A program made the position numbers and the translations under genes. 36,478 nt of DNA, from positions 1 through 36,478 of the IMG/VR virus record IMGVR_UViG_3300032116_012984; one strand, 5' to 3'. Positions 1,432 to 34,913 of this stretch are shown in pieces. Numbering within the stretch: position 1 is the first letter of the stretch; each line of letters starts with the position of its first letter. The DNA comes from a virus. The notes beneath the pieces were generated by a model. That model had not been told where the DNA came from and ran no database searches. It saw only the letters and a program-made list of their open reading frames with translations.

Positions 1432-1960
1432 CTTTGGATTTTGATTCTTTGAGACCCAGGTAAGCATTCCAGCTGGGATGACGAACACCTGTATAAGTGC
1501 TTTTCACTGAATTGACCAAGGCCCAGTAATTGGGTTTCACTGGAGTTTTGTTTGGCCTCCAGATCTTTGATCCTTTTTCAGCATTGCACTCTTTACATGC
1601 TGTGACACAATTTTCCCAACTGGTAACACCACCGTGACTACGAGGTAGCACATGGTCTATGGTTAGTTCTCGACCGTTGAAAGTGTCATCACAGTATTGG
1701 CAAGTAAACAGATCACGTAGATATAGATTTTGTCTACTGAACCGCATGCCTCCGTTTTTACCAAAACCTCGTTTGGTCACGGCCACAGCGGGTACACGCA
1801 TCTCTAGTCGAGCACTGCGTACAGTCCAATCATCATACCATTCCAGCACTTGGATTTTGTCCAGGAAGAACAGCTTGATAGCAGTTTGCCAATCTATGGT
1901 TGAAAGTGGCAAGTAGTTGACCGGTTGATAGTCCGGTGCTAATATTAGCGTATCGCTCAT
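1424..1960 (-). CDS. HNH endonuclease (McrA-like, two CxxC pairs)
   Basis: A 178-residue protein. The HNH core has CxxC at 87-90, the catalytic Asp-His at 102-103 (TIDHVLPRSHGG), Asn 117 and a second CxxC at 122-125, which together form a zinc-stabilised beta-beta-alpha-metal nuclease. The first 80 residues form a separate N-terminal domain seen in many free-standing phage and bacterial HNH proteins. I chose the ATG at 1960 because the protein then starts at the conserved-looking MSDTLILAPDYQP and lies just after a late-promoter box (CATAAATA); a start further upstream would run through that promoter. The 3' end overlaps the upstream nuclease gene by 8 bp, tail to tail. It could be a packaging-associated nuclease, since the terminase is divergent and adjacent, or a homing enzyme; context does not decide. 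Confidence 0.85.
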   Translation of the reverse strand: MSDTLILAPDYQPVNYLPLSTIDWQTAIKLFFLDKIQVLEWYDDWTVRSARLEMRVPAVAVTKRGFGKNGGMRFSRQNLYLRDLFTCQYCDDTFNGRELTIDHVLPRSHGGVTSWENCVTACKECNAEKGSKIWRPNKTPVKPNYWALVNSVKSTYTGVRHPSWNAYLGLKESKSKVI

Positions 1961-1965
1961 AAGAA

Positions 1966-1973
1966 TATTTATG
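1966..1973 (-). promoter_or_regulatory. T4-like late promoter for HNH gene
   Basis: The minus strand reads CATAAATA, one base off the T4 late consensus TATAAATA. The ATG of the HNH gene follows after 5 nt, so a T4-type start site (about the sixth base after the box) falls on the start codon. No Shine-Dalgarno is present. Confidence 0.65.
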
Positions 1974-3564: not shown

Positions 3565-3570
3565 TAAATA
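3563..3570 (+). promoter_or_regulatory. T4-like late promoter overlapping terminase stop
   Basis: AATAAATA, whose first two bases belong to the terminase TAA stop codon. The ATG of the next gene follows after 7 nt with no Shine-Dalgarno. Confidence 0.6.
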
Positions 3571-3577
3571 CTAAACT

Positions 3578-4984
3578 ATGAGTCAATCCAACACAGCCTC
3601 CCAACAACTTTACGATTTGCTAGTCAGCAGAGATTTTGATCCAGAAGCCTTGGATGCTACAGGCAAACCTGCAGACGATCCTGCTGATGCTGAAATCATC
3701 AGCTTTGACTACAAAACCGATGAGAAAAACTACGGTGCTGTGGTATTGGTGCTGGACGGTGACAACAACTTAGATATCTACTTTGGCGACAACATGGGTC
3801 GCGCCATGGAAGGCGATGACCGCAGTGAGTGGTACGATTTCCTTTACCTTGTGCGTATGTTTGCCAAGCGTAACTTGCTGACATTCAGCCTTAAAAATCT
3901 ATCCAGACTCAAATACAACATGAAGACCATGGCTGCTGTAAAAGAAAGTATCTTTGAAGGCTACTACGGATCTCGTAAAATCAGCTACAGCGACCAACCG
4001 CAGAAAACAAGACTGCGTATCAAACACAGCAAAGACCTTGAAGAAGGTGAAGCACGATATCGCAACATTGAAAGCATCTATGTTGAAAATGCACAAGGCG
4101 AAAGATTCAAAGTACCTAGTCGTAGTTTGATGCACGGTCGTATGATAGCACGACATGTGGCCGAAGGTGGCAATCCCTACGATGCCTTTGGCCAGCATAT
4201 CAACGAAATGGTCGAAGAGATGCACACATTGGCAAACTTTGTGAGAGCATCCAAAAACAAGAACTACGATGGCGATGCCAATCACATGGTAGAGTCTGCC
4301 ATACGTCATTACTCTGAACTCAAAGCCAAGGCCAAACGCATGATTGGACGCCGTGGCTATCATGAAGCACGTGAACAGTTTGATCCTGCAGAGATTACTC
4401 CAGTGAACGAAGCAGTAGAGACCATTAGAGAATTATTTGTACAACACACATTGGATCCTCGCATAGAACACGCATTGCCACTGTTGGCAAAACTACAAGA
4501 AGCACCAATGAAAGAAGCTGATCAATTTGCATCTTGGGCAGACAACATCATGGAAGGCACCTGGGCATTACCAGAAACTCCAGAATCAGTTAAAAAATTA
4601 CAAGACCTAATGAGCAAAGATCTCATTGTTGGTCCCGATGCTACCAATGCCACAGAACAATTATATGATCTAGTGGGTGATGATGTGTTGTTTGATATCC
4701 TGGAAGAGATTGCAGAAATCAATCCTGACGCCAATGTCTGGGATGACGCTCGTGTACAACGACGTTTTGACGAACTAGGTATCCCCATGGCAGATATCAC
4801 TGATCAAGCAGACTTTGACAACAGCTATGACGCTGATAACACAGACACACAACAAGTAAAAGAAAGTTCATGCAACATGACTCGTGAAGGAACAGAGTGT
4901 CCTGTGCATGGCATGAACGAGTGTGGCATGTACGAACACAAAACTGAGCTAGAAAGAATTAGATCACTCGCCGCAGTACAATGA
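3578..4984 (+). CDS. Conserved phage protein of unknown function with C-terminal Cys/His cluster
   Basis: A 468-residue acidic protein that I cannot assign to a function. The first 110 residues contain an alternating hydrophobic stretch (YGAVVLVLDGDNNLDIYFG) and a WYDFLYLVRMFAKRNLL segment. The middle is helical and charged, with MHGRMIARHV and HYSELKAKAKRMIGRRGYHEAR. The C-terminus carries C432-x8-C441-x2-H444-x4-C449-x4-H454, a plausible zinc-binding knuckle. It lies directly after the terminase behind its own late-promoter box, so it is probably made late and may be a virion or assembly protein; that is inference. It overlaps the next gene by ATGA. Confidence 0.8.
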   Translation: MSQSNTASQQLYDLLVSRDFDPEALDATGKPADDPADAEIISFDYKTDEKNYGAVVLVLDGDNNLDIYFGDNMGRAMEGDDRSEWYDFLYLVRMFAKRNLLTFSLKNLSRLKYNMKTMAAVKESIFEGYYGSRKISYSDQPQKTRLRIKHSKDLEEGEARYRNIESIYVENAQGERFKVPSRSLMHGRMIARHVAEGGNPYDAFGQHINEMVEEMHTLANFVRASKNKNYDGDANHMVESAIRHYSELKAKAKRMIGRRGYHEAREQFDPAEITPVNEAVETIRELFVQHTLDPRIEHALPLLAKLQEAPMKEADQFASWADNIMEGTWALPETPESVKKLQDLMSKDLIVGPDATNATEQLYDLVGDDVLFDILEEIAEINPDANVWDDARVQRRFDELGIPMADITDQADFDNSYDADNTDTQQVKESSCNMTREGTECPVHGMNECGMYEHKTELERIRSLAAVQ

Positions 4985-5556: not shown

Positions 5557-6085
5557 TTCTAGTCCCTGATCCTTGTATTACCTGATGCAGTTTTGAATCC
5601 ACATTGAGGTTGATATAGCCGTGATTTGGTTTTATTGCAATTTCATATGCAGGATCAACGTGCATGAATTCAACACCGTGGCAGGGTTGATCTGATCCAG
5701 AATGCACATCCACATACACTTGATAGGTCACAACAATGTCTAGGGAATCTGAGTGTGGCTGACAACCAAAGTTAGGCAGATCCAGCCAGTACTTCACAAT
5801 CATAAGGTTGAGATCTTTTCCGGTGAGCTTGTTGAGTTCAGGAATAATGTCCAACCCAATCTGTTGTAAACGATTGTAATCCGTTCCGGGTTTCAACCAT
5901 AATCTATGATGTGGCCTAGTGACTTCAAATTCGTTGCCTTCGTTGATCACAATGTCTTGTAACCATTTCAATGTGTCGGAAGAGAAGCACTGATCTATTT
6001 CCCAACAGTTTGGAGCCACTGATTTGACTAAACTGATTTCGTCATATATCTTGACTTGCTGTGCAGATGTGTTATACTGTGTCAT
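5522..6085 (-). CDS. 2OG-Fe(II) oxygenase-like protein with intact metal triad
   Basis: A 187-residue protein. The predicted iron ligands are His111-x-Asp113 and His167, with Arg176 as the 2-oxoglutarate anchor (HQVIQGSGTRTSVVFQY), the usual double-stranded beta-helix layout of prolyl-4-hydroxylase-like enzymes. Such enzymes hydroxylate protein side chains, nucleobases or small molecules; the substrate here is unknown. I chose ATG 6085 because a late-promoter box (CTTAAATA) ends 7 nt before it; a start at 6124 would place the promoter inside the gene. Its 3' end overlaps the convergent degenerate paralogue by 35 bp. Confidence 0.7.
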   Translation of the reverse strand: MTQYNTSAQQVKIYDEISLVKSVAPNCWEIDQCFSSDTLKWLQDIVINEGNEFEVTRPHHRLWLKPGTDYNRLQQIGLDIIPELNKLTGKDLNLMIVKYWLDLPNFGCQPHSDSLDIVVTYQVYVDVHSGSDQPCHGVEFMHVDPAYEIAIKPNHGYINLNVDSKLHQVIQGSGTRTSVVFQYNVCN

Positions 6086-6092
6086 ATGCTGA

Positions 6093-6100
6093 TATTTAAG
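6093..6100 (-). promoter_or_regulatory. T4-like late promoter for minus-strand oxygenase gene
   Basis: The minus strand reads CTTAAATA, followed by 7 nt and the ATG at 6085. No ribosome-binding site is visible, so the predicted leader is about 2 nt. Confidence 0.6.
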
Positions 6101-13036: not shown

Positions 13037-13044
13037 TATAAATA
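13037..13044 (+). promoter_or_regulatory. Perfect T4-like late promoter for cytidylyltransferase gene
   Basis: TATAAATA, then 5 nt, then the ATG at 13050. T4-type initiation would start on the A of the ATG, giving a leaderless mRNA. No Shine-Dalgarno is present. Confidence 0.75.
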
Positions 13045-13049
13045 TGCAC

Positions 13050-13814
13050 ATGAATAAAATCGTATTAGTCACAGGTGGGTTTGATCCCATACATTCAGGC
13101 CACATCGCGTATTTCAAAGCAGCCAAAACCCTAGGCGACATTCTCATAGTTGGATTGAACTCCGACGAATGGCTTGAGCGTAAAAAAGGCCGAGCATTCA
13201 TGCCGTGGAATGAACGGTTATGTGTTATAAACAATCTTGCAATGGTAGATGAAGTTTATACATTCAACGATGACGATGGATCAGCCAAACACTTCATACA
13301 GCAAGTCAGGGCCCATTACCCCACAGCAGAGTTAATATTTGCCAATGGCGGGGATCGCACAGATAAAAATATTCCAGAAATGGATGTTGTAGACTCCAAT
13401 CTTAAGTTTGTGTTTGGAGTGGGTGGATACGACAAAGCCAATTCCAGTAGCTGGATCTTGGAAGAATGGCGAGCACCCAAGACGGAACGTGCCTGGGGCT
13501 ACTATCGTGTGCTACACGAACCTAACTCACAGGTCAAGCTCAAAGAACTCACAGTGGATCCTGGCAAAACACTCAGCATGCAACGTCACGAAGACCGCGG
13601 TGAACTTTGGTTTGTCAGCGAAGGTGAAGCCACTCTGTACACCATAAACAGAAAATCAGACGCAGAGCTACATGGTCGCTACACAAAAAATCAAATGATA
13701 GTGATCAATCGCAGAGAATGGCATCAATTGGCCAACGAAGGCACAGAACCGTTAAAAGTGATAGAAATACAGTACGGCGATCGTTGCGAAGAAACTGACA
13801 TAGAACGAAAATGA
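13050..13814 (+). CDS. Cytidylyltransferase-like nucleotidyltransferase fused to mannose-6-P isomerase-type cupin
   Basis: A 254-residue two-domain protein. Residues 1-145 form a RfaE-II/TagD-like nucleotidyltransferase: GGFDPIHSGH at 9-18 contains the HxGH catalytic motif, and NSSSWI stands where these enzymes have ISSTxI. Residues about 150-250 form a cupin like the C-terminal domain of type II phosphomannose isomerase/GDP-mannose pyrophosphorylase (AWGYYRVL, then MQRHEDRGELWFVSEGEA with metal-binding His and Glu). Together they would activate a sugar phosphate and isomerise or bind a sugar, supplying a donor to the glycosyltransferases around it. ATG 13050 was chosen because the promoter box ends 5 nt before it. 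It overlaps the next gene by ATGA. Confidence 0.8.
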   Translation: MNKIVLVTGGFDPIHSGHIAYFKAAKTLGDILIVGLNSDEWLERKKGRAFMPWNERLCVINNLAMVDEVYTFNDDDGSAKHFIQQVRAHYPTAELIFANGGDRTDKNIPEMDVVDSNLKFVFGVGGYDKANSSSWILEEWRAPKTERAWGYYRVLHEPNSQVKLKELTVDPGKTLSMQRHEDRGELWFVSEGEATLYTINRKSDAELHGRYTKNQMIVINRREWHQLANEGTEPLKVIEIQYGDRCEETDIERK

Positions 13815-14500
13815 ACGACATCATTCCTATCTTCGTGGGCTATGATCCTAGAGAAGCCATAGCTTATCATACCTGTGTAAATTCAATCATACGACATGCT
13901 ACCCGTCCAGTGGCCATACATCCTGTGGCATTGAACTTATTCAAAGACTACGATGAAACACATACCGACGGTAGCAATCATTTCATCTACACTAGATTTC
14001 TAGTTCCGCATCTCATGAACTGGCATGGCTGGGCCATCTTTATCGATGGTGACATGATTGTGCGTGATGACATTACTAAACTGTGGAACTTGCGAGAAAT
14101 GGACAAAGATGTCATGGTAGTCAAACACGACTACAAGACTCGTATGCCCGTCAAATACTTAGGAGCAAAAAATGAAGACTATCCTCGAAAAAATTGGAGT
14201 AGTGTTATTCTGTGGAATTGTAGTAGCTTTCCTAACCGGCGACTTACTCCCGAATTCGTCCAACAATCCACCGGCAGTGAGCTCCACCGCTTCTCGTGGA
14301 TAGACGATGAGCGTATTGGTGAACTACCACCAGAATGGAACTGGTTAGATGTTGAATACGAACAAAATCCTCAAGCAAAACTAGTACATTACACACTAGG
14401 AACACCGTGCTTTCATGAGTTTTCTACCCAGGGCAACTTTGCCGATGAGTGGCACCGCGAACGTATTCTCACAGAGTACTGTCAGCAACGAATCAACTAA
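13811..14500 (+). CDS. GT-A glycosyltransferase (DGD motif)
   Basis: A 229-residue protein. It begins with a Rossmann-like strand and YDPREAIAYHTCVNSI, and carries the metal/nucleotide-sugar motif IFIDGDMIV with DGD at 79-81, as in GT8-like enzymes. WIDDERIGELPPEWNWLD and the C-terminal VHYTLGTPCF fit the acceptor side of the same fold. It is coupled to the cytidylyltransferase gene by ATGA, suggesting that it uses that gene's product. Its stop overlaps the convergent minus-strand glycosyltransferase by 4 bp. Confidence 0.8.
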   Translation: MNDIIPIFVGYDPREAIAYHTCVNSIIRHATRPVAIHPVALNLFKDYDETHTDGSNHFIYTRFLVPHLMNWHGWAIFIDGDMIVRDDITKLWNLREMDKDVMVVKHDYKTRMPVKYLGAKNEDYPRKNWSSVILWNCSSFPNRRLTPEFVQQSTGSELHRFSWIDDERIGELPPEWNWLDVEYEQNPQAKLVHYTLGTPCFHEFSTQGNFADEWHRERILTEYCQQRIN

Positions 14501-15138
14501 ATCCAGTGCTGTTGCACCAATGGATGATAGCCCATGGTGCTAGGCTTTTGTGATACTTTTCTAAACATCAACATTTTTATTTGACTGAGATCTCTATGTG
14601 CATCTTTGTAGTTGGCAATGTGAAACCACTCCGCAGGGCAATGATCAGTTAACACAGTGTGTTGAGCATGCTCGCTAATAATAGCTTGATCACCATACAA
14701 AGGCGGAACACTGTACAATGATTGCCAATGGCTCAATGGCTCACCGATAAATGTGTTCCAAAGATAACTATGGTCTCCTTGCCAATACATGAACGCACTG
14801 GAATGTATATTTTTGTCTGCTTCAATCCACATCACAAAGGATTGATGTTGAATACGTTCAATTATATCATCAATGTTGCCACAAATCACAGTGTCTAGAT
14901 CTATGTACACAGTGGGTCCTGACAGCAATCCAGGTTTGAACATTTGCATTTTTGACCAAAATCCATGATCCCCAGATTGTAATTCAATTCGTTCACAGTT
15001 GACCTCACAGTCACTAAAACAAATAAAACGATGTGGTTGTGTTAGATTACGTTGTACACCGCGTTGTAGTTTGTCAACCCAGACAGCATCGTATCCTACC
15101 TTCCCACCTTGCCGTAACACACATACAACGTTAAGCAT
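14497..15138 (-). CDS. GT-A glycosyltransferase (DLD motif)
   Basis: A 213-residue protein. The GT-A signature is VYIDLDTVICGNID with DLD at 80-82, preceded by GFWSKMQMFKPG. The ending QHWI and the DLDTVI block match those of the plus-strand gene at 19615, so the two are paralogues. It is the last gene of a three-gene minus-strand operon (two methyltransferases, then this) whose promoter is the palindromic late box at 16239-16252. It overlaps the preceding methyltransferase by 8 bp. Confidence 0.8.
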   Translation of the reverse strand: MLNVVCVLRQGGKVGYDAVWVDKLQRGVQRNLTQPHRFICFSDCEVNCERIELQSGDHGFWSKMQMFKPGLLSGPTVYIDLDTVICGNIDDIIERIQHQSFVMWIEADKNIHSSAFMYWQGDHSYLWNTFIGEPLSHWQSLYSVPPLYGDQAIISEHAQHTVLTDHCPAEWFHIANYKDAHRDLSQIKMLMFRKVSQKPSTMGYHPLVQQHWI

Positions 15139-15670
15139 AACGTTCCAACACCAGTAGCCCAGATCCGCGATTGCAGTGTTCTATAATATGCCATTCATGA
15201 TTGTGATGCAAAAATACAATCACAGCTTCAAACACTCCGGGCCACTCAGTGGGATCGTGAAGCACAATATACTTTTGAGCATGACAAGCATGACGGTCTA
15301 GCTCTGCTAGACAATGCTGTTTGGTATGTACAGTGTCAATAAACAGTAAGTCACAGGGTTCAATGTCTATTTCTAAACTGTTGGCTATGGCAAACTCAAA
15401 GTCAGTGCCATTGAGTTCAGCACAGTGTTTCAATTCGTCTAGCACAGTTAAGTTAGCATTGGTGATATCATAGCTTCGTAGTTTTTTTGGATTTCCGGCA
15501 AGCCAGGCACAGGTACTGAGTCCAGTATAAACTCCAAACTCTACTATGCTGTCAACTTGACTGGCATACTTCTTATAAGTGTCAAATCTAGTTGGGCTGT
15601 CGCCTAACCATTTGGTAGGATGTATTTTTAATTCAACAAAGTCTTGTTGAAGTTCTTGTAGTGTTCTCAT
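15131..15670 (-). CDS. Class I methyltransferase (Methyltransf_24/CmcI-like)
   Basis: A 179-residue protein. Motif I is SIVEFGVYTGLSTCAWL, followed by the acidic loop SYDIT and the family-typical LLFIDTVHTKQHCLAELDRH, then IVLHDP. These match the group of small methyltransferases/cephalosporin-hydroxylase-like proteins that often accompany surface-polysaccharide genes. The start overlaps the upstream stop by ATGA, and the end overlaps the glycosyltransferase by 8 bp, so the three are translationally coupled. Substrate unknown; a sugar hydroxyl is plausible. Confidence 0.75.
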   Translation of the reverse strand: MRTLQELQQDFVELKIHPTKWLGDSPTRFDTYKKYASQVDSIVEFGVYTGLSTCAWLAGNPKKLRSYDITNANLTVLDELKHCAELNGTDFEFAIANSLEIDIEPCDLLFIDTVHTKQHCLAELDRHACHAQKYIVLHDPTEWPGVFEAVIVFLHHNHEWHIIEHCNRGSGLLVLERYA

Positions 15671-16212
15671 TGTTTTCTTAACCAGTATACACCCAGCTTG
15701 CTTTTTTGGCTTTTACGATACGAGTCAAATACATAGTGCCCCCAAGTATCCATAACTTCATCGTGACTCCAGTCATCTTTGACATGTGCTTCGTGAGGGT
15801 TTTCATAGGCATGTTCGTCCTGCGGCATGTGTCTGATGGGGATGCTCACAATCAGTGTGTCTGCTACAGAAAGAATACGGTCAACCAAGGCAACAGCATC
15901 CGTTTTGGTCATATGTTCTAGTACATCACCTGCAATGACCACACTGGGATTTAATTCGTTCCAGTTCACAGTTCTCACATCTTGGTTTAGCACACGAGTA
16001 TACCGGCTTTCCAACTGAAATTCTTCAATGTATGGTTTCCAAATTTCTACACCGATCCAGGTTGCATTTGTGCAACACCCAGCTTCTTCTTTGATCAATT
16101 TGATATAGGTGCCTGACCCAGGGCCAATATCCACCACTGTGGTAATTTTTGATTCGTTGCTTTGAAACCATGCTAGAGTTTCGGCTTTGCCTGATTTGAG
16201 ACTGAATGACAT
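15667..16212 (-). CDS. Class I SAM-dependent methyltransferase
   Basis: A 181-residue protein. Motif I is TVVDIGPGSGTYIKL, the acidic loop is IGVEIW, and motif II is SVVIAGDVLEHMTKTDA, followed by LIVSIPIRH. The ATG at 16212 has a clear AAGGA ribosome site; a longer start at 16329 would run through the promoter palindrome and the opposite gene. It is the first gene of the minus-strand methyltransferase-methyltransferase-glycosyltransferase operon. The predicted leader from the late promoter is about 27 nt, so this late gene is not leaderless. Confidence 0.8.
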   Translation of the reverse strand: MSFSLKSGKAETLAWFQSNESKITTVVDIGPGSGTYIKLIKEEAGCCTNATWIGVEIWKPYIEEFQLESRYTRVLNQDVRTVNWNELNPSVVIAGDVLEHMTKTDAVALVDRILSVADTLIVSIPIRHMPQDEHAYENPHEAHVKDDWSHDEVMDTWGHYVFDSYRKSQKSKLGVYWLRKQ

Positions 16213-16238
16213 TTGTTTTCCTTGGTAGTGTGGTATGC

Positions 16239-16252
16239 TATAAATATTTATA
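16239..16252. promoter_or_regulatory. Palindromic bidirectional late promoter
   Basis: TATAAATATTTATA is a perfect 14-bp palindrome that presents a complete TATAAATA box on each strand. It lies between the divergent methyltransferase operon (ATG 16212) and the GT25 gene (ATG 16268). Confidence 0.75.
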
Positions 16253-16267
16253 TACATATATAAACCA

Positions 16268-17089
16268 ATGAAAGCCTTTATCATCCATCTTCCAGACCGT
16301 CCGCACAGTGTTGCGCACTCGGCCAGCATGTTAAAAACACTGCAATCCTACAACATTGATGCCGAACTGTTTGAAGGAATACGAGGAGATGTAGCAGTAA
16401 AATTGGCACAACGAGCCGGCAAAGTTCTGTATCCTTACAGCATAAAGAACAGACAGCTGGATGACAAAGATATCAAAGAACTCATACGACCTGAACTCTA
16501 CGAAGACTTTAAAAAACGCTATCAATACAAGATCATTGAACGCAAACCAATAGGTGAGGCTCACATAGGAAAGCTCAGTCGGCCAGGAGTGGTGGGATGT
16601 TTCTACAGTCATTACGCACTGTGGAAAAAATGCATAGATCTCAACGAACCCATTATGATTTTTGAGGATGATGTAAAGTTTTACAGAGAATACCGTCCAG
16701 TGGAGTTTGATGGAGTGTTGATTTTGAGTCTAGGCAAAAGTAGTTTTTTATCTGACCCACAAAAAACTTATCTAGAGAATCCTACAGGGGTACCACGCAG
16801 TCGCCCCTGGCAAAATTTCAGTATGCCTGGCGCCAGTGGATATTTGATCAAACCTGACGCTGCCTTGGGATTGACCAAGTTCTATCGTCCTTACTGGTAT
16901 CCAGCAGACAATGCAATCAATCAGTTTATTACTCCTATACAGATACATACCTATCTCATGGGCCGTAATACCTTGCCCGAAGAAGGCAACATATCAATGA
17001 CCAAGAGCAAGGACTGGGCTGCCACCTTAAACAGCACTGTGGTCAACAGTGACTACACTGACGACTTTGAATCTGGGTCGGCTCAATGA
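16268..17089 (+). CDS. Glycosyltransferase family 25 (LPS-type)
   Basis: A 273-residue protein. The N-terminal FIIHLPDRP and AELFEGIRG (33-40), the middle GCFYSHYALWKKCID (about 110-124) and PIMIFEDDVKF with EDD at 133-135 are the standard GT25 blocks. The family adds galactose or other hexoses to lipo-oligosaccharide, or glucosylates protein hydroxylysine. The position in a phage glycan island suggests modification of host LPS or of a virion protein. It is coupled to the next gene by ATGA. Its transcript probably starts at the palindromic late promoter, with a leader of about 16 nt. Confidence 0.85.
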   Translation: MKAFIIHLPDRPHSVAHSASMLKTLQSYNIDAELFEGIRGDVAVKLAQRAGKVLYPYSIKNRQLDDKDIKELIRPELYEDFKKRYQYKIIERKPIGEAHIGKLSRPGVVGCFYSHYALWKKCIDLNEPIMIFEDDVKFYREYRPVEFDGVLILSLGKSSFLSDPQKTYLENPTGVPRSRPWQNFSMPGASGYLIKPDAALGLTKFYRPYWYPADNAINQFITPIQIHTYLMGRNTLPEEGNISMTKSKDWAATLNSTVVNSDYTDDFESGSAQ

Positions 17090-18009
17090 AAGTGGGTATT
17101 TTTTATAATTCCATTAGAAATCCGGCCAAGTTCTCCAACAAGGTGGATCTCATGGATAATTTCAAAGCTGGAGTATTGGCCAATGGAGACGAAGTTGTTG
17201 ATTATCATAACAATCAACTGCCTGACCAAGACCTAGATGCAGGCTTTGTATTGGGCTACACCCTGGAAGAAAATTTTCGACGAAAAATAATTGACATACT
17301 ACGTGCAAAAAAAGTTCCACAGATCTTTGTTGACAGCAACATACTGCACTATGCACGTAAAGAACATGAATGGCACAGATATAGTTTGAACAGTGTTTAC
17401 CCTAATGATGGAGTTTACTTGTTTGGTGCCATGGATCCTGACAAATGGGCCACATACAGTCAGTGGCATGGCGTTGAATTACAACCTTGGAGACAACAAG
17501 GACAGCACATTTTGATATTGTGTCAACGACCCAAGGGTTGGAATATGTTTGGCAATGATCAAGATCATTGGTTGGAAAAAACCATTGACAAGATCAGAAA
17601 GATTGACGTCAAGCGACACATTGTGATTAGAATGCATCCTGGCGATGGCTCTAGATTTAAACAAATTGACAAACTAAACAAACGCTATCCTCACAAAACT
17701 TCTCGAATCTCAATTTCCACAAATGAAAACATACGTGACGACTTGATCAATTGCTGGTGCGTGGTGGGTTATAATTCTACACCCAATGTGGTCAGCGTGA
17801 TCGAAGGAGTTCCGGCCTACATTGAAGATCCCTTGCACAGCTGGGCCGCCGATGTTGCATTCTCAAATTTAAATGATATTGTTGCTCCACCTATGCCAGA
17901 TCGAACTGAATGGATCAACAAAATTGCCAATATACACTGGTCAAATCAAGAAGTACGCACAGGAAAACTCTGGGCCAGTATCAAACAGTATATTTCTGTT
18001 TCTCGTTGA
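17086..18009 (+). CDS. Putative GT-B / capsule-synthesis-like glycosyltransferase
   Basis: A 307-residue protein without a motif that settles its function. HIVIRMHPGDG and the following WCVVGYNSTPNVVSVIEGVPAYI resemble the donor-binding half of GT-B enzymes of the capsule-synthesis (KpsC/KpsS-like) type, which have an HP motif and a conserved xNSxxxxEA block. The gene at 18797 has both blocks in equivalent places, so the two look paralogous. It is coupled to GT25 by ATGA; its 3' end overlaps the convergent glycosyltransferase by 29 bp. The N-terminal half contains a conserved-looking FVDSNILHYAR. Confidence 0.55.
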   Translation: MKVGIFYNSIRNPAKFSNKVDLMDNFKAGVLANGDEVVDYHNNQLPDQDLDAGFVLGYTLEENFRRKIIDILRAKKVPQIFVDSNILHYARKEHEWHRYSLNSVYPNDGVYLFGAMDPDKWATYSQWHGVELQPWRQQGQHILILCQRPKGWNMFGNDQDHWLEKTIDKIRKIDVKRHIVIRMHPGDGSRFKQIDKLNKRYPHKTSRISISTNENIRDDLINCWCVVGYNSTPNVVSVIEGVPAYIEDPLHSWAADVAFSNLNDIVAPPMPDRTEWINKIANIHWSNQEVRTGKLWASIKQYISVSR

Positions 18010-18778
18010 CAAAAATTTCTAGTTCTTTTCTGGTACCCTTGGCGGTCCAAACACAGCTATGTGGTTGCATTTCCCAGTCAATGAGTTCGGTGGGCAGTTG
18101 ACTCCATCGATAATTTGGCACTATATGATCCAACACGTCCTGATCAATGCCCCAGTGAATTTGATCATGTTCTATGGCCTGAGCAAGTTCAGCGGAGTAG
18201 TTTTGCAAGAATTGATATCCCAAATTGGTTCCTGGCAAAAATATACCCCCGGCTAAAAATCTAGCTTTTTTCCCTTCAATATGCCGTATGCCAAAGTCTG
18301 ACAGGGTTGACATCATGGGTATCGGAGATCTGACCAGGGCATCAATGTCCATGGCAAATACACAATCCATTGGTTGCATGAGTTGTGCTAACCGTATAAA
18401 TCTTGCACATGCAAAATAGGTTCGCTGTATGCGTTGTTGAACGCTGACATCTTTGCCTTTTTTCATAGCAGTGTGTATTCTTTTGTATCGGTCATTAAGC
18501 ACAGGATCAGCGGGAGGATTTTGCCAAGGTGCGGCAGCGGCGTCAAACAAGTTCAACGGAACTTCTTCAAAAGTAACACTGACTCTTGACTGCGATCTAC
18601 AGTATTGTATCTGTTCAGCAGTGGGATTATACAAGTGTAGGTGTAATCCGTGTGCGGTGTTGGTTTGCACACTGCGAATCAGTGCAGGGCCAAAGTCTTT
18701 AAAATATTCCTGATCGCCGGCGGCATATAAGAAAAATCCAGACTGGGCGAGATTTCCCTTTAGTGGTGGTATAATCAT
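17981..18778 (-). CDS. GT-A glycosyltransferase (DID motif)
   Basis: A 265-residue protein. CVFAMDIDALVRSPI carries the DxD metal motif (DID, 144-146), preceded by YFACARFIRLAQLMQP, a helix found before the DxD in GT8/GT24-like enzymes. HWGIDQDVL downstream fits the GDQDxxN-type acceptor block. The start at 18778 follows the late box by 7 nt without a Shine-Dalgarno; the longer version to 18832 would contain the palindromic promoter and the opposite start. It is a single-gene minus-strand cassette. Confidence 0.75.
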   Translation of the reverse strand: MIIPPLKGNLAQSGFFLYAAGDQEYFKDFGPALIRSVQTNTAHGLHLHLYNPTAEQIQYCRSQSRVSVTFEEVPLNLFDAAAAPWQNPPADPVLNDRYKRIHTAMKKGKDVSVQQRIQRTYFACARFIRLAQLMQPMDCVFAMDIDALVRSPIPMMSTLSDFGIRHIEGKKARFLAGGIFLPGTNLGYQFLQNYSAELAQAIEHDQIHWGIDQDVLDHIVPNYRWSQLPTELIDWEMQPHSCVWTAKGTRKELEIFVNEKQKYTV

Positions 18779-18779
18779 A

Positions 18780-18793
18780 GTTAAATATTTAAC
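18780..18793. promoter_or_regulatory. Palindromic bidirectional late promoter
   Basis: GTTAAATATTTAAC is a 14-bp perfect palindrome with a TTAAATA box on each strand. The minus-strand ATG (18778) is 7 nt and the plus-strand ATG (18797) 9 nt from the respective box, so both mRNAs would be nearly leaderless. Confidence 0.7.
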
Positions 18794-18796
18794 CTT

Positions 18797-19654
18797 ATGC
18801 GTGTAGCCTACTTTCCAAATCAATGTGCTCAAAACAGCGTTCCTGTCATGCAGGCCATGTTGGATAGTCTACGACATGCTGGCCATACCGTTGAACAAAA
18901 CAGTTATGATTGTGATGCTGCCATTATATGGTCGGTGTTATGGGCAGGCAGAATGACAGCCAATCAGGCAGTATGGTCGCACTATAGAAGTTTGGGTCGA
19001 CCAGTTATTATCATAGACATAGGTGCTTTGTATCGCGGTGAAACTTGGAAGATAGCTGTAAATTCTATCACTGCCAACGGCTATTACGGACATACAGAAA
19101 ACTTGGATTGGGATCGTCCTCGTAAGTTAGGCATTAGCATAGCATTGAATTTTAGTACCAACCCCAGGATAATCATTGCCGCACAACATGCCCGCAGTCA
19201 GCAGGTAGTGGGTTTAGTCAGCGTGGAATCGTGGGTGGTTGAGCAAGTTGAACGACTGCGCACATTCACTGATCGTCCTATTGTGGTGCGTCCACATCCT
19301 CGCAGTTCTTTAAATTGGGCTGGGCTGGTACACTTGCCCAAGGATGTCGTGATAGAGAAACCTGTTAAGGTGGCCAACACCTATGACAGCTACAACTTGG
19401 CCTTTGATTGCCATGCCATGGTCAACTACAATTCAGGTCCAGGCATACAGGCCGCACTTGCTGGCACTAGACCCATAGTAGATCAATCCAGTTTGGCCTG
19501 GCCGGTAAGTATACAACTAGCAGATATTGATAAATCATACGACGTAGATAGAGATCAATGGTTGACAGAAATCTGTCACACAGAATACACAGTAGAAGAA
19601 ATCAAACAAGGAATATGGTTAAAAAGAATACAGCCGGCACTATCCCTGAAGTAG
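18797..19654 (+). CDS. Putative GT-B / capsule-synthesis-like glycosyltransferase
   Basis: A 285-residue protein. IVVRPHPRSSLNW and AMVNYNSGPGIQAALAGTRPIV resemble the HPR and NSGxxxEAL blocks of capsule-synthesis-type GT-B proteins and align by eye with the gene at 17086. The first half (CDAAIIWSVLWAGRM, VIIIDIGALYRG) looks like a Rossmann domain. It starts 9 nt after the palindromic late promoter, with no ribosome site, and its 3' end overlaps the following glycosyltransferase by 40 bp. Donor and acceptor unknown. Confidence 0.6.
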   Translation: MRVAYFPNQCAQNSVPVMQAMLDSLRHAGHTVEQNSYDCDAAIIWSVLWAGRMTANQAVWSHYRSLGRPVIIIDIGALYRGETWKIAVNSITANGYYGHTENLDWDRPRKLGISIALNFSTNPRIIIAAQHARSQQVVGLVSVESWVVEQVERLRTFTDRPIVVRPHPRSSLNWAGLVHLPKDVVIEKPVKVANTYDSYNLAFDCHAMVNYNSGPGIQAALAGTRPIVDQSSLAWPVSIQLADIDKSYDVDRDQWLTEICHTEYTVEEIKQGIWLKRIQPALSLK

Positions 19655-33845: not shown

Positions 33846-34901
33846 ATCACACAACTCAGGTAGGTAGTTTTTGATACTGATACCTTTGAGATTGTCTTGT
33901 CTTTTTATCTGTTTTAAAAATTCTTCAAAATTGCTTTGATCAGTTTCACTGTGGACTTCACCTATATAGGTATCGTAGTCCACAGGATTGAGAACTGTTT
34001 TTAAATGTTGTTTGACATGAACAGGCAATGCACGTGGCTGTAACCATGCTGGATGATAGATGGGATTGTTGGCATATTCTATTTTTTGTTCCGCAAACCA
34101 AGCCACAGTTTGATTGTGATACAACACATTGAGATTGCTCAGTGTATAATTTGCTGAAACAAACGTAGTAAGTTCTCGGAAAAACTTTAAATTTGGTTCT
34201 AACAAAGACCAATCCAATGGATATCGCACATATTCAAACACAGGCCCAGTACCATCAATGCTGACGCAAAAATTAAGATTTTTAAATTTTGACAAAATCT
34301 TTTTATATTCGTCCGACAGAGCCACGCTGCCATTGGTCACCATGCTGATAAAGCATCGATCATTGCCCAGTTCCAGCAAGCGTTCTAATACTTGGAAATT
34401 CTTTTTTTCATACAAGGGTTCGCCGCCCAACAGAGTCAAGGTCACCAAGCTGGAGAAATCTATTTCACTGTAGACCTTGTCAAGATCAATGAATTGATAT
34501 TTCTTCATGCCTAATTTGGGATTTTCTTTGTAATCCAATTTTGCCCAACTGCTACTAGCTCCTGCGTTACAACTCACACAAGCGGCATTACAAGTGTAAC
34601 TGGTCATCATCTTGAGCATCAAGGTTTTTTCCAGCCCTTGTGCGGCGTCCTGTTTGATAAACTGCAAATCTCTATCCCAATACCAATCCAGAGCGGCATT
34701 TTTTAACTGTCGATCACTGGTCAGCCCTTGATCTTCGAGATTCCAGCATTTCTGGCATTCCGCAGGGCGTTTGCCCGCGAGCATTTCCTGCTGTATTTTT
34801 TTGATATCATACTGCTTGGGCAATAGACAACAGTGAGTATCAATGCGATTAGTCCAGTTTAATTCCCGTCCAAACCAAGGTAAAACACAAAAATTGTTCA
34901 T
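33819..34901 (-). CDS. Radical SAM protein 3 with N-terminal twitch/SPASM-like Cys set
   Basis: A 360-residue protein. The N-terminal Cys set is FCVLPW (4-9), CC at 24-25 and CQKC at 49-52. The radical-SAM motif is CNAACVSC (104-111), followed by NAGASSSW. GGEPLYEKKNF is the SAM-binding segment, and FCVSIDGTGPVFEYVRYP matches the equivalent block of radical-SAM protein 2. Its end (LKGISIKNYLPEL) also resembles the end of protein 2 (YRGLDFNKTFPEL). It is a minus-strand cassette with its own late promoter 4 nt before the ATG and no ribosome site. Substrate unknown. Confidence 0.88.
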   Translation of the reverse strand: MNNFCVLPWFGRELNWTNRIDTHCCLLPKQYDIKKIQQEMLAGKRPAECQKCWNLEDQGLTSDRQLKNAALDWYWDRDLQFIKQDAAQGLEKTLMLKMMTSYTCNAACVSCNAGASSSWAKLDYKENPKLGMKKYQFIDLDKVYSEIDFSSLVTLTLLGGEPLYEKKNFQVLERLLELGNDRCFISMVTNGSVALSDEYKKILSKFKNLNFCVSIDGTGPVFEYVRYPLDWSLLEPNLKFFRELTTFVSANYTLSNLNVLYHNQTVAWFAEQKIEYANNPIYHPAWLQPRALPVHVKQHLKTVLNPVDYDTYIGEVHSETDQSNFEEFLKQIKRQDNLKGISIKNYLPELCDLIGLDLFE

Positions 34902-34905
34902 GATC

Positions 34906-34913
34906 TATTTACG
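34906..34913 (-). promoter_or_regulatory. Late promoter for radical-SAM gene 3
   Basis: The minus strand reads CGTAAATA, then 4 nt, then ATG at 34901. This is the shortest promoter-to-start distance in the window, and no ribosome site is present. Confidence 0.6.

Follow-up and report, generated by a model that had tools for sequence, protein, structure and literature searches.

The DNA analyzed here (the window) spans an entire virus record of IMG/VR, 36,478 bases long, and represents a fragment of an uncultured, T4-like jumbo phage. It encodes UvsX, UvsY, a single-strand binding protein, terminase, helicase, and primase, and its UvsX shares 65-70% identity with the UvsX proteins of jumbo phages such as Phosso, Atu_ph07, and GAP32. 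Some relatives of the locus described below lie on contigs of 300-349 kb. The genomes of this clade are metagenomic records whose start codons were assigned by simple rules, and a search of bacterial genomes gave no host for the clade, its one relative having 49% identity and lying on a short contig. At the locus, a gene for a glycosyltransferase of family 25 (GT25) diverges from a three-gene operon, and the DNA between them contains a palindrome, termed site 1:

14497-15138, minus strand: glycosyltransferase (phrog_1962, E 3e-22)
15131-15670, minus strand: second methyltransferase (PF13578)
15667-16212, minus strand: methyltransferase (phrog_4752; Methyltransf_25 below the cut-off; homologs begin at 16212)
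16219-16223, minus strand: Shine-Dalgarno sequence AAGGA of this methyltransferase (CCTT conserved in the alignment of relatives)
16239-16252, strandless: perfect 14-bp palindrome TATAAATATTTATA, identical to its reverse complement and without a second copy in the window
16241-16250, strandless: core TAAATATTTA, two overlapping putative late-promoter boxes, invariant in nine distinct palindrome-type methyltransferase/GT25 intergenic regions (L304 differs)
16241-16246, plus strand: TAAATA box for GT25, with the ATG 27 nt on and a start predicted from T4 spacing at about 16252
16245-16250, minus strand: TAAATA box for the methyltransferase operon, with the ATG 38 nt on and a start predicted from T4 spacing at about 16239
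16268-17089, plus strand: GT25 (PF01755, E 4e-17), without a recognizable Shine-Dalgarno sequence

The methyltransferase-methyltransferase-glycosyltransferase operon on the minus strand, which an earlier note had read from the bare sequence, is borne out by PHROG and Pfam matches. A start of its first gene at 16329, which would give the longest open reading frame and an overlap with GT25, was rejected, since the homologs and the Shine-Dalgarno sequence point to the ATG at 16212. The same note had described an exact palindrome between the divergent operons, and indeed the T4 late-promoter consensus TATAAATA can be read on both strands of it, at 16239-16246 (plus) and at 16245-16252 (minus). The 14-bp sequence remains a single copy in the window even if two mismatches are allowed, and no exact copy arose in 100 dinucleotide shuffles of the window. 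The 10-bp core is present twice, compared to 0.05 copies expected.

In this clade, the late box is TAAATA alone, and any base (A, C, G, or T) may precede it. In the 349- and 300-kb relatives, ATAAATA, CTAAATA, GTAAATA, TTAAATA, TAAATAT, and similar heptamers are enriched upstream of genes, each about 10- to 20-fold. TAAATA peaks 10-40 nt before start codons, whereas the opposite-strand hexamer, taken as a control, has no peak; 10-14 nt before open reading frames counted from their first ATG, it is the commonest of all hexamers, with AAAGGA behind. The TAA stop codon of an upstream gene accounts for 19 of 107 sites with TAAATA before an ATG and was dropped as an explanation. Logos of the 8-14 bases preceding the box revealed no second conserved block. 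A second class of motifs enriched upstream of genes, GGTTGAC and TGCTATAAT, looks like ordinary sigma70 promoters. As for other phages, CTAAATA is reported as a late-promoter variant in Aeh1 (PMC1524935; PMC2988020), and the late box of S-PM2 is NATAAATA (PMC2984593). A gp55-type late sigma factor (phrog_234, E ~1e-24) is encoded in five clade genomes (G014, G004, G011, G018, and G005), and none was seen in the window fragment; PF04542 missed the clade's gene, which phrog_234 picked up.

Conservation of the full 14-bp symmetry, which the earlier note had named as a check of its reading, did not hold among the relatives: it is retained only by the near-identical records L002, L003, and L024, and most relatives read (A/G)CTAAATATTTATATAC at site 1. 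The core, in contrast, is invariant in nine of the ten distinct records with this divergent methyltransferase/GT25 pair; in the tenth, L304, both boxes are kept face to face, with neither overlap nor palindrome. That conservation is confined to 10 bp is explained by the clade's box, TAAATA with any base before it. Hence, of the proposal that each strand carries a full promoter, the part that stands is a late-type box conserved on both strands, reduced to the TAAATA core. The CTAAATA of the relatives was also considered as a lost plus-strand promoter, a reading that was abandoned because the k-mer census places CTAAATA fully within the box class. The core is embedded in a 16-column invariant block, TAAATATTTATATACA, and the remaining intergenic DNA varies in sequence and length. 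This block reaches further upstream on the minus side (TATACA) than on the plus side, and the minus promoter may therefore be the stronger one; since GT25 has no recognizable Shine-Dalgarno sequence, strong expression from the plus side is only putative.

The surroundings of GT25 in other genomes bear on the plus-strand box. A sense TAAATA lies 24-30 nt before the GT25 start codon in all 19 distinct contexts in which the gene is divergent and in none of the 21 distinct records in which it follows a gene on the same strand; thus, the box appears exactly when a promoter is needed. Homologous sites and records share descent, so that these counts overstate the independent evidence, and we press no P value. 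In ten distinct records (L361, L362, L364, L365, L372, L374, L379, L382, L383, and L390), GT25 diverges from another gene, always with face-to-face boxes of the form TAAATA-N11/12-TATTTA, whose two predicted starts would nearly coincide.

The second copy of the core belongs to another perfect palindrome, site 2, which also lies between divergent genes:

17981-18778, minus strand: divergent gene left of site 2, 265 aa, with its ATG 13 nt after the box and no PHROG match
18780-18793, strandless: second perfect 14-bp palindrome GTTAAATATTTAAC with the same core, between divergent start codons 19 bp apart
18797-19654, plus strand: gene right of site 2, 285 aa, with its ATG 15 nt after the box

Homologs of site 2 were collected via the plus-strand gene, without reference to the palindrome. 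The exact core was found in 17 of 18 distinct upstream regions with the same kind of divergent neighbor, and the eighteenth (L209) reads TAAATATATTTA, in which both hexamers are kept. G016 reads GGGTAAATATTTACCC at this position. In G014 and G004, the boxes have a back-to-back layout and lie about 12-13 nt from the ATG of their respective genes, which argues that what is conserved is the provision of each gene with a box at a fixed distance. A palindrome appears to arise where two divergent starts are close. Where homologs of the 18797 gene have another left neighbor (L210-L223 and similar records), they keep only the minus-strand box and have a GTGATC start. Outside the 16241 and 18780 sites, there is no genome-wide excess of TAAATATTTA, and the window's clade has no copy of the reversed palindrome that served as a control. 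Among other isolated T4-like phages, no clear divergent use of the palindrome was found, most matches lying upstream of a single gene or within coding sequence; a match in Atu_ph07 (L194) may be in divergent use.

In sum, our data make it likely that site 1 is a T4-type bidirectional late promoter, with activity in both directions, start sites, and mutual exclusion predicted from sequence, and a shared two-way late promoter is well supported by the comparison of relatives. In our model, a gp55-like late sigma factor together with the host RNA polymerase would recognize a TAAATA box some 10 bp ahead of the start. Since the core would offer this box on both strands with an overlap of 2 bp, the same stretch of DNA could be opened in either direction. 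RNAs would then start on opposite strands about 11-13 bp apart, as predicted from T4 spacing, one leading into GT25 and the other into the methyltransferase-methyltransferase-glycosyltransferase operon. By their geometry, the overlapping boxes should exclude two holoenzymes at once; a single polymerase would be bound at a time, each genome copy would take one direction per initiation, and both operons would be expressed across many genome copies. Selection would act to give each divergent gene a box at a permitted distance from its start codon, and the palindrome would be the most compact solution and not itself a selected feature. Indeed, symmetry is probably not under selection, since L304 and site 2 of G014 and G004 keep the boxes without a palindrome. 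The polarity of late activation in T4 depends on which strand is nicked, via the orientation of the clamp (PMC2988020); we offer as a hypothesis that the same might choose the direction at site 1.

A different reading is that the promoter serves the methyltransferase operon in one direction only and that the plus half arose incidentally from the AT-rich DNA that follows the box. The Shine-Dalgarno sequence and the longer invariant block, both on the minus side, fit this reading, as does the finding that T4 late promoters are AT-rich downstream of the box (PMC2988020). However, TTTA follows 22 of the 778 TAAATA boxes in 1.73 Mb, which include only 11 palindromes, so that TTTA after the box is not generally needed, whereas it is present at all nine distinct palindrome-type sites. 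Furthermore, the sense box of GT25 is found in every divergent context, including the arrangement with a different neighbor, and never in a co-directional one. We therefore regard the one-way reading as unlikely. Less weight still can be given to the palindrome as the operator of a dimeric regulator instead of a promoter pair, although its symmetry is perfect and extends to the outer arms (GT..AC at site 2, GGG..CCC in G016): the symmetry is broken or respaced in L209, L304, and site 2 of G014 and G004 while the hexamers are kept, and the lone hexamer is spread upstream of many genes, which renders an operator very improbable. That the palindrome forces the two operons to fire in strict alternation, as the earlier note had proposed, we consider scarcely credible, because the exclusion expected from geometry (and stated for E. 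coli bidirectional promoters, which compete only under strong activation and not at basal activity; PMC12825309) sets no order at one DNA copy, the genome should be present in many copies late in infection, and L304 has the same gene pair with boxes that do not overlap.

Site 2 drew attention to a further property of these phages, the distance between box and start codon. Measured from the first T of TAAATA, it is bimodal, with 152 pairs at 10-14 nt, 15 at 15-20 nt, and 156 at 21-34 nt, and a Shine-Dalgarno-like sequence precedes 1% (1/152), 13%, and 62% of the genes in these classes, respectively. About one-third of the box-linked genes thus have their ATG 10-14 nt past the box, close to the expected +1; the T4 late box occupies -13 to -6 (PMC1524935), which places +1 at position 11. 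The base directly before the ATG is a pyrimidine in 95% of the genes at a distance of 11, and the consensus directly before the ATG is ACT at a distance of 13. Short spacing without a Shine-Dalgarno sequence is kept in 155 of 186 ortholog comparisons among four genomes. The major capsid gene has a normal Shine-Dalgarno sequence and no adjacent box. Leaderless promoters, each with its start, are predicted at five places in the window:

1958-1971, minus strand: box 1971, ATG 1960
3565-3580, plus strand: box 3565, ATG 3578
6083-6098, minus strand: box 6098, ATG 6085
13039-13052, plus strand: box 13039, ATG 13050
34899-34911, minus strand: box 34911, ATG 34901

Whole-genome counts of TAAATA-N4-8-ATG versus TAAATA-N10-14-ATG are 37/5, 36/5, 38/11, and 44/11 in clade genomes, compared to 21/24 in T4, 20/27 in GAP32, 10/9 in KVP40, 11/19 in S-PM2, and 41/30 in Atu_ph07 (control, 65). 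The short-spacing peak is absent from T4 and nine other isolated phages, with HTVC008M (NC_020484) as a possible exception; its counts of 27/16 (control, 17) may reflect a mild excess, the only such case outside the clade. Judged from the spacing, many late mRNAs of these phages are probably leaderless. The combined proposal, that about one-third of the box-linked late genes give leaderless mRNAs whose +1 falls on the AUG or no more than a few nucleotides away and that, where divergent starts lie about 19 bp apart, the boxes are fused into one palindrome with leaderless or nearly leaderless products in both directions, is one that we favor somewhat over its negation. We found no earlier report of a leaderless late pattern in the openly licensed literature. 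If confirmed, it would imply AUG-first initiation for many late genes in a large phage group, and it would raise the questions of which host is involved and whether its ribosomes are changed.

Two-way promoters are known for the bacterial housekeeping sigma factor, and site 1 would be one that works with a phage late sigma factor; if true, it would provide a simple natural substrate for studying how late transcription receives its polarity from the sliding clamp. Like the T4 late promoter (gp55 sigma, gp33, and gp45 clamp; consensus as above), the promoters of the clade have an AT box about one turn before the predicted start, no -35 element is seen, and a gp55 homolog is encoded. Unlike in T4, the core is cut to TAAATA with the preceding bases free, box pairs of divergent genes overlap or stand face to face, and about one-third of the linked genes begin at or beside the predicted +1. 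The CTAAATA of Aeh1 has the same core preceded by C, as in most relatives at site 1, whereas all four bases precede the core in the window's clade. A symmetric box serving both strands is shared with the bidirectional sigma70 promoters known from bacteria (PMC10268837; PMC12825309; Warman et al. 2021), which have a symmetric -10 box, divergent starts 7-25 bp apart, and mutually exclusive polymerases; site 1 differs in that the box is of the phage late-sigma type and 2 bp of the 6-bp box overlap, and site 2 in that both predicted products are leaderless or nearly so. Finally, the leaderless genes of Deinococcus-Thermus (PMC12340547) also have a -10 box directly before the start codon, but those are host promoters, whereas the promoters described here would be phage late promoters read by a gp55-type sigma factor.
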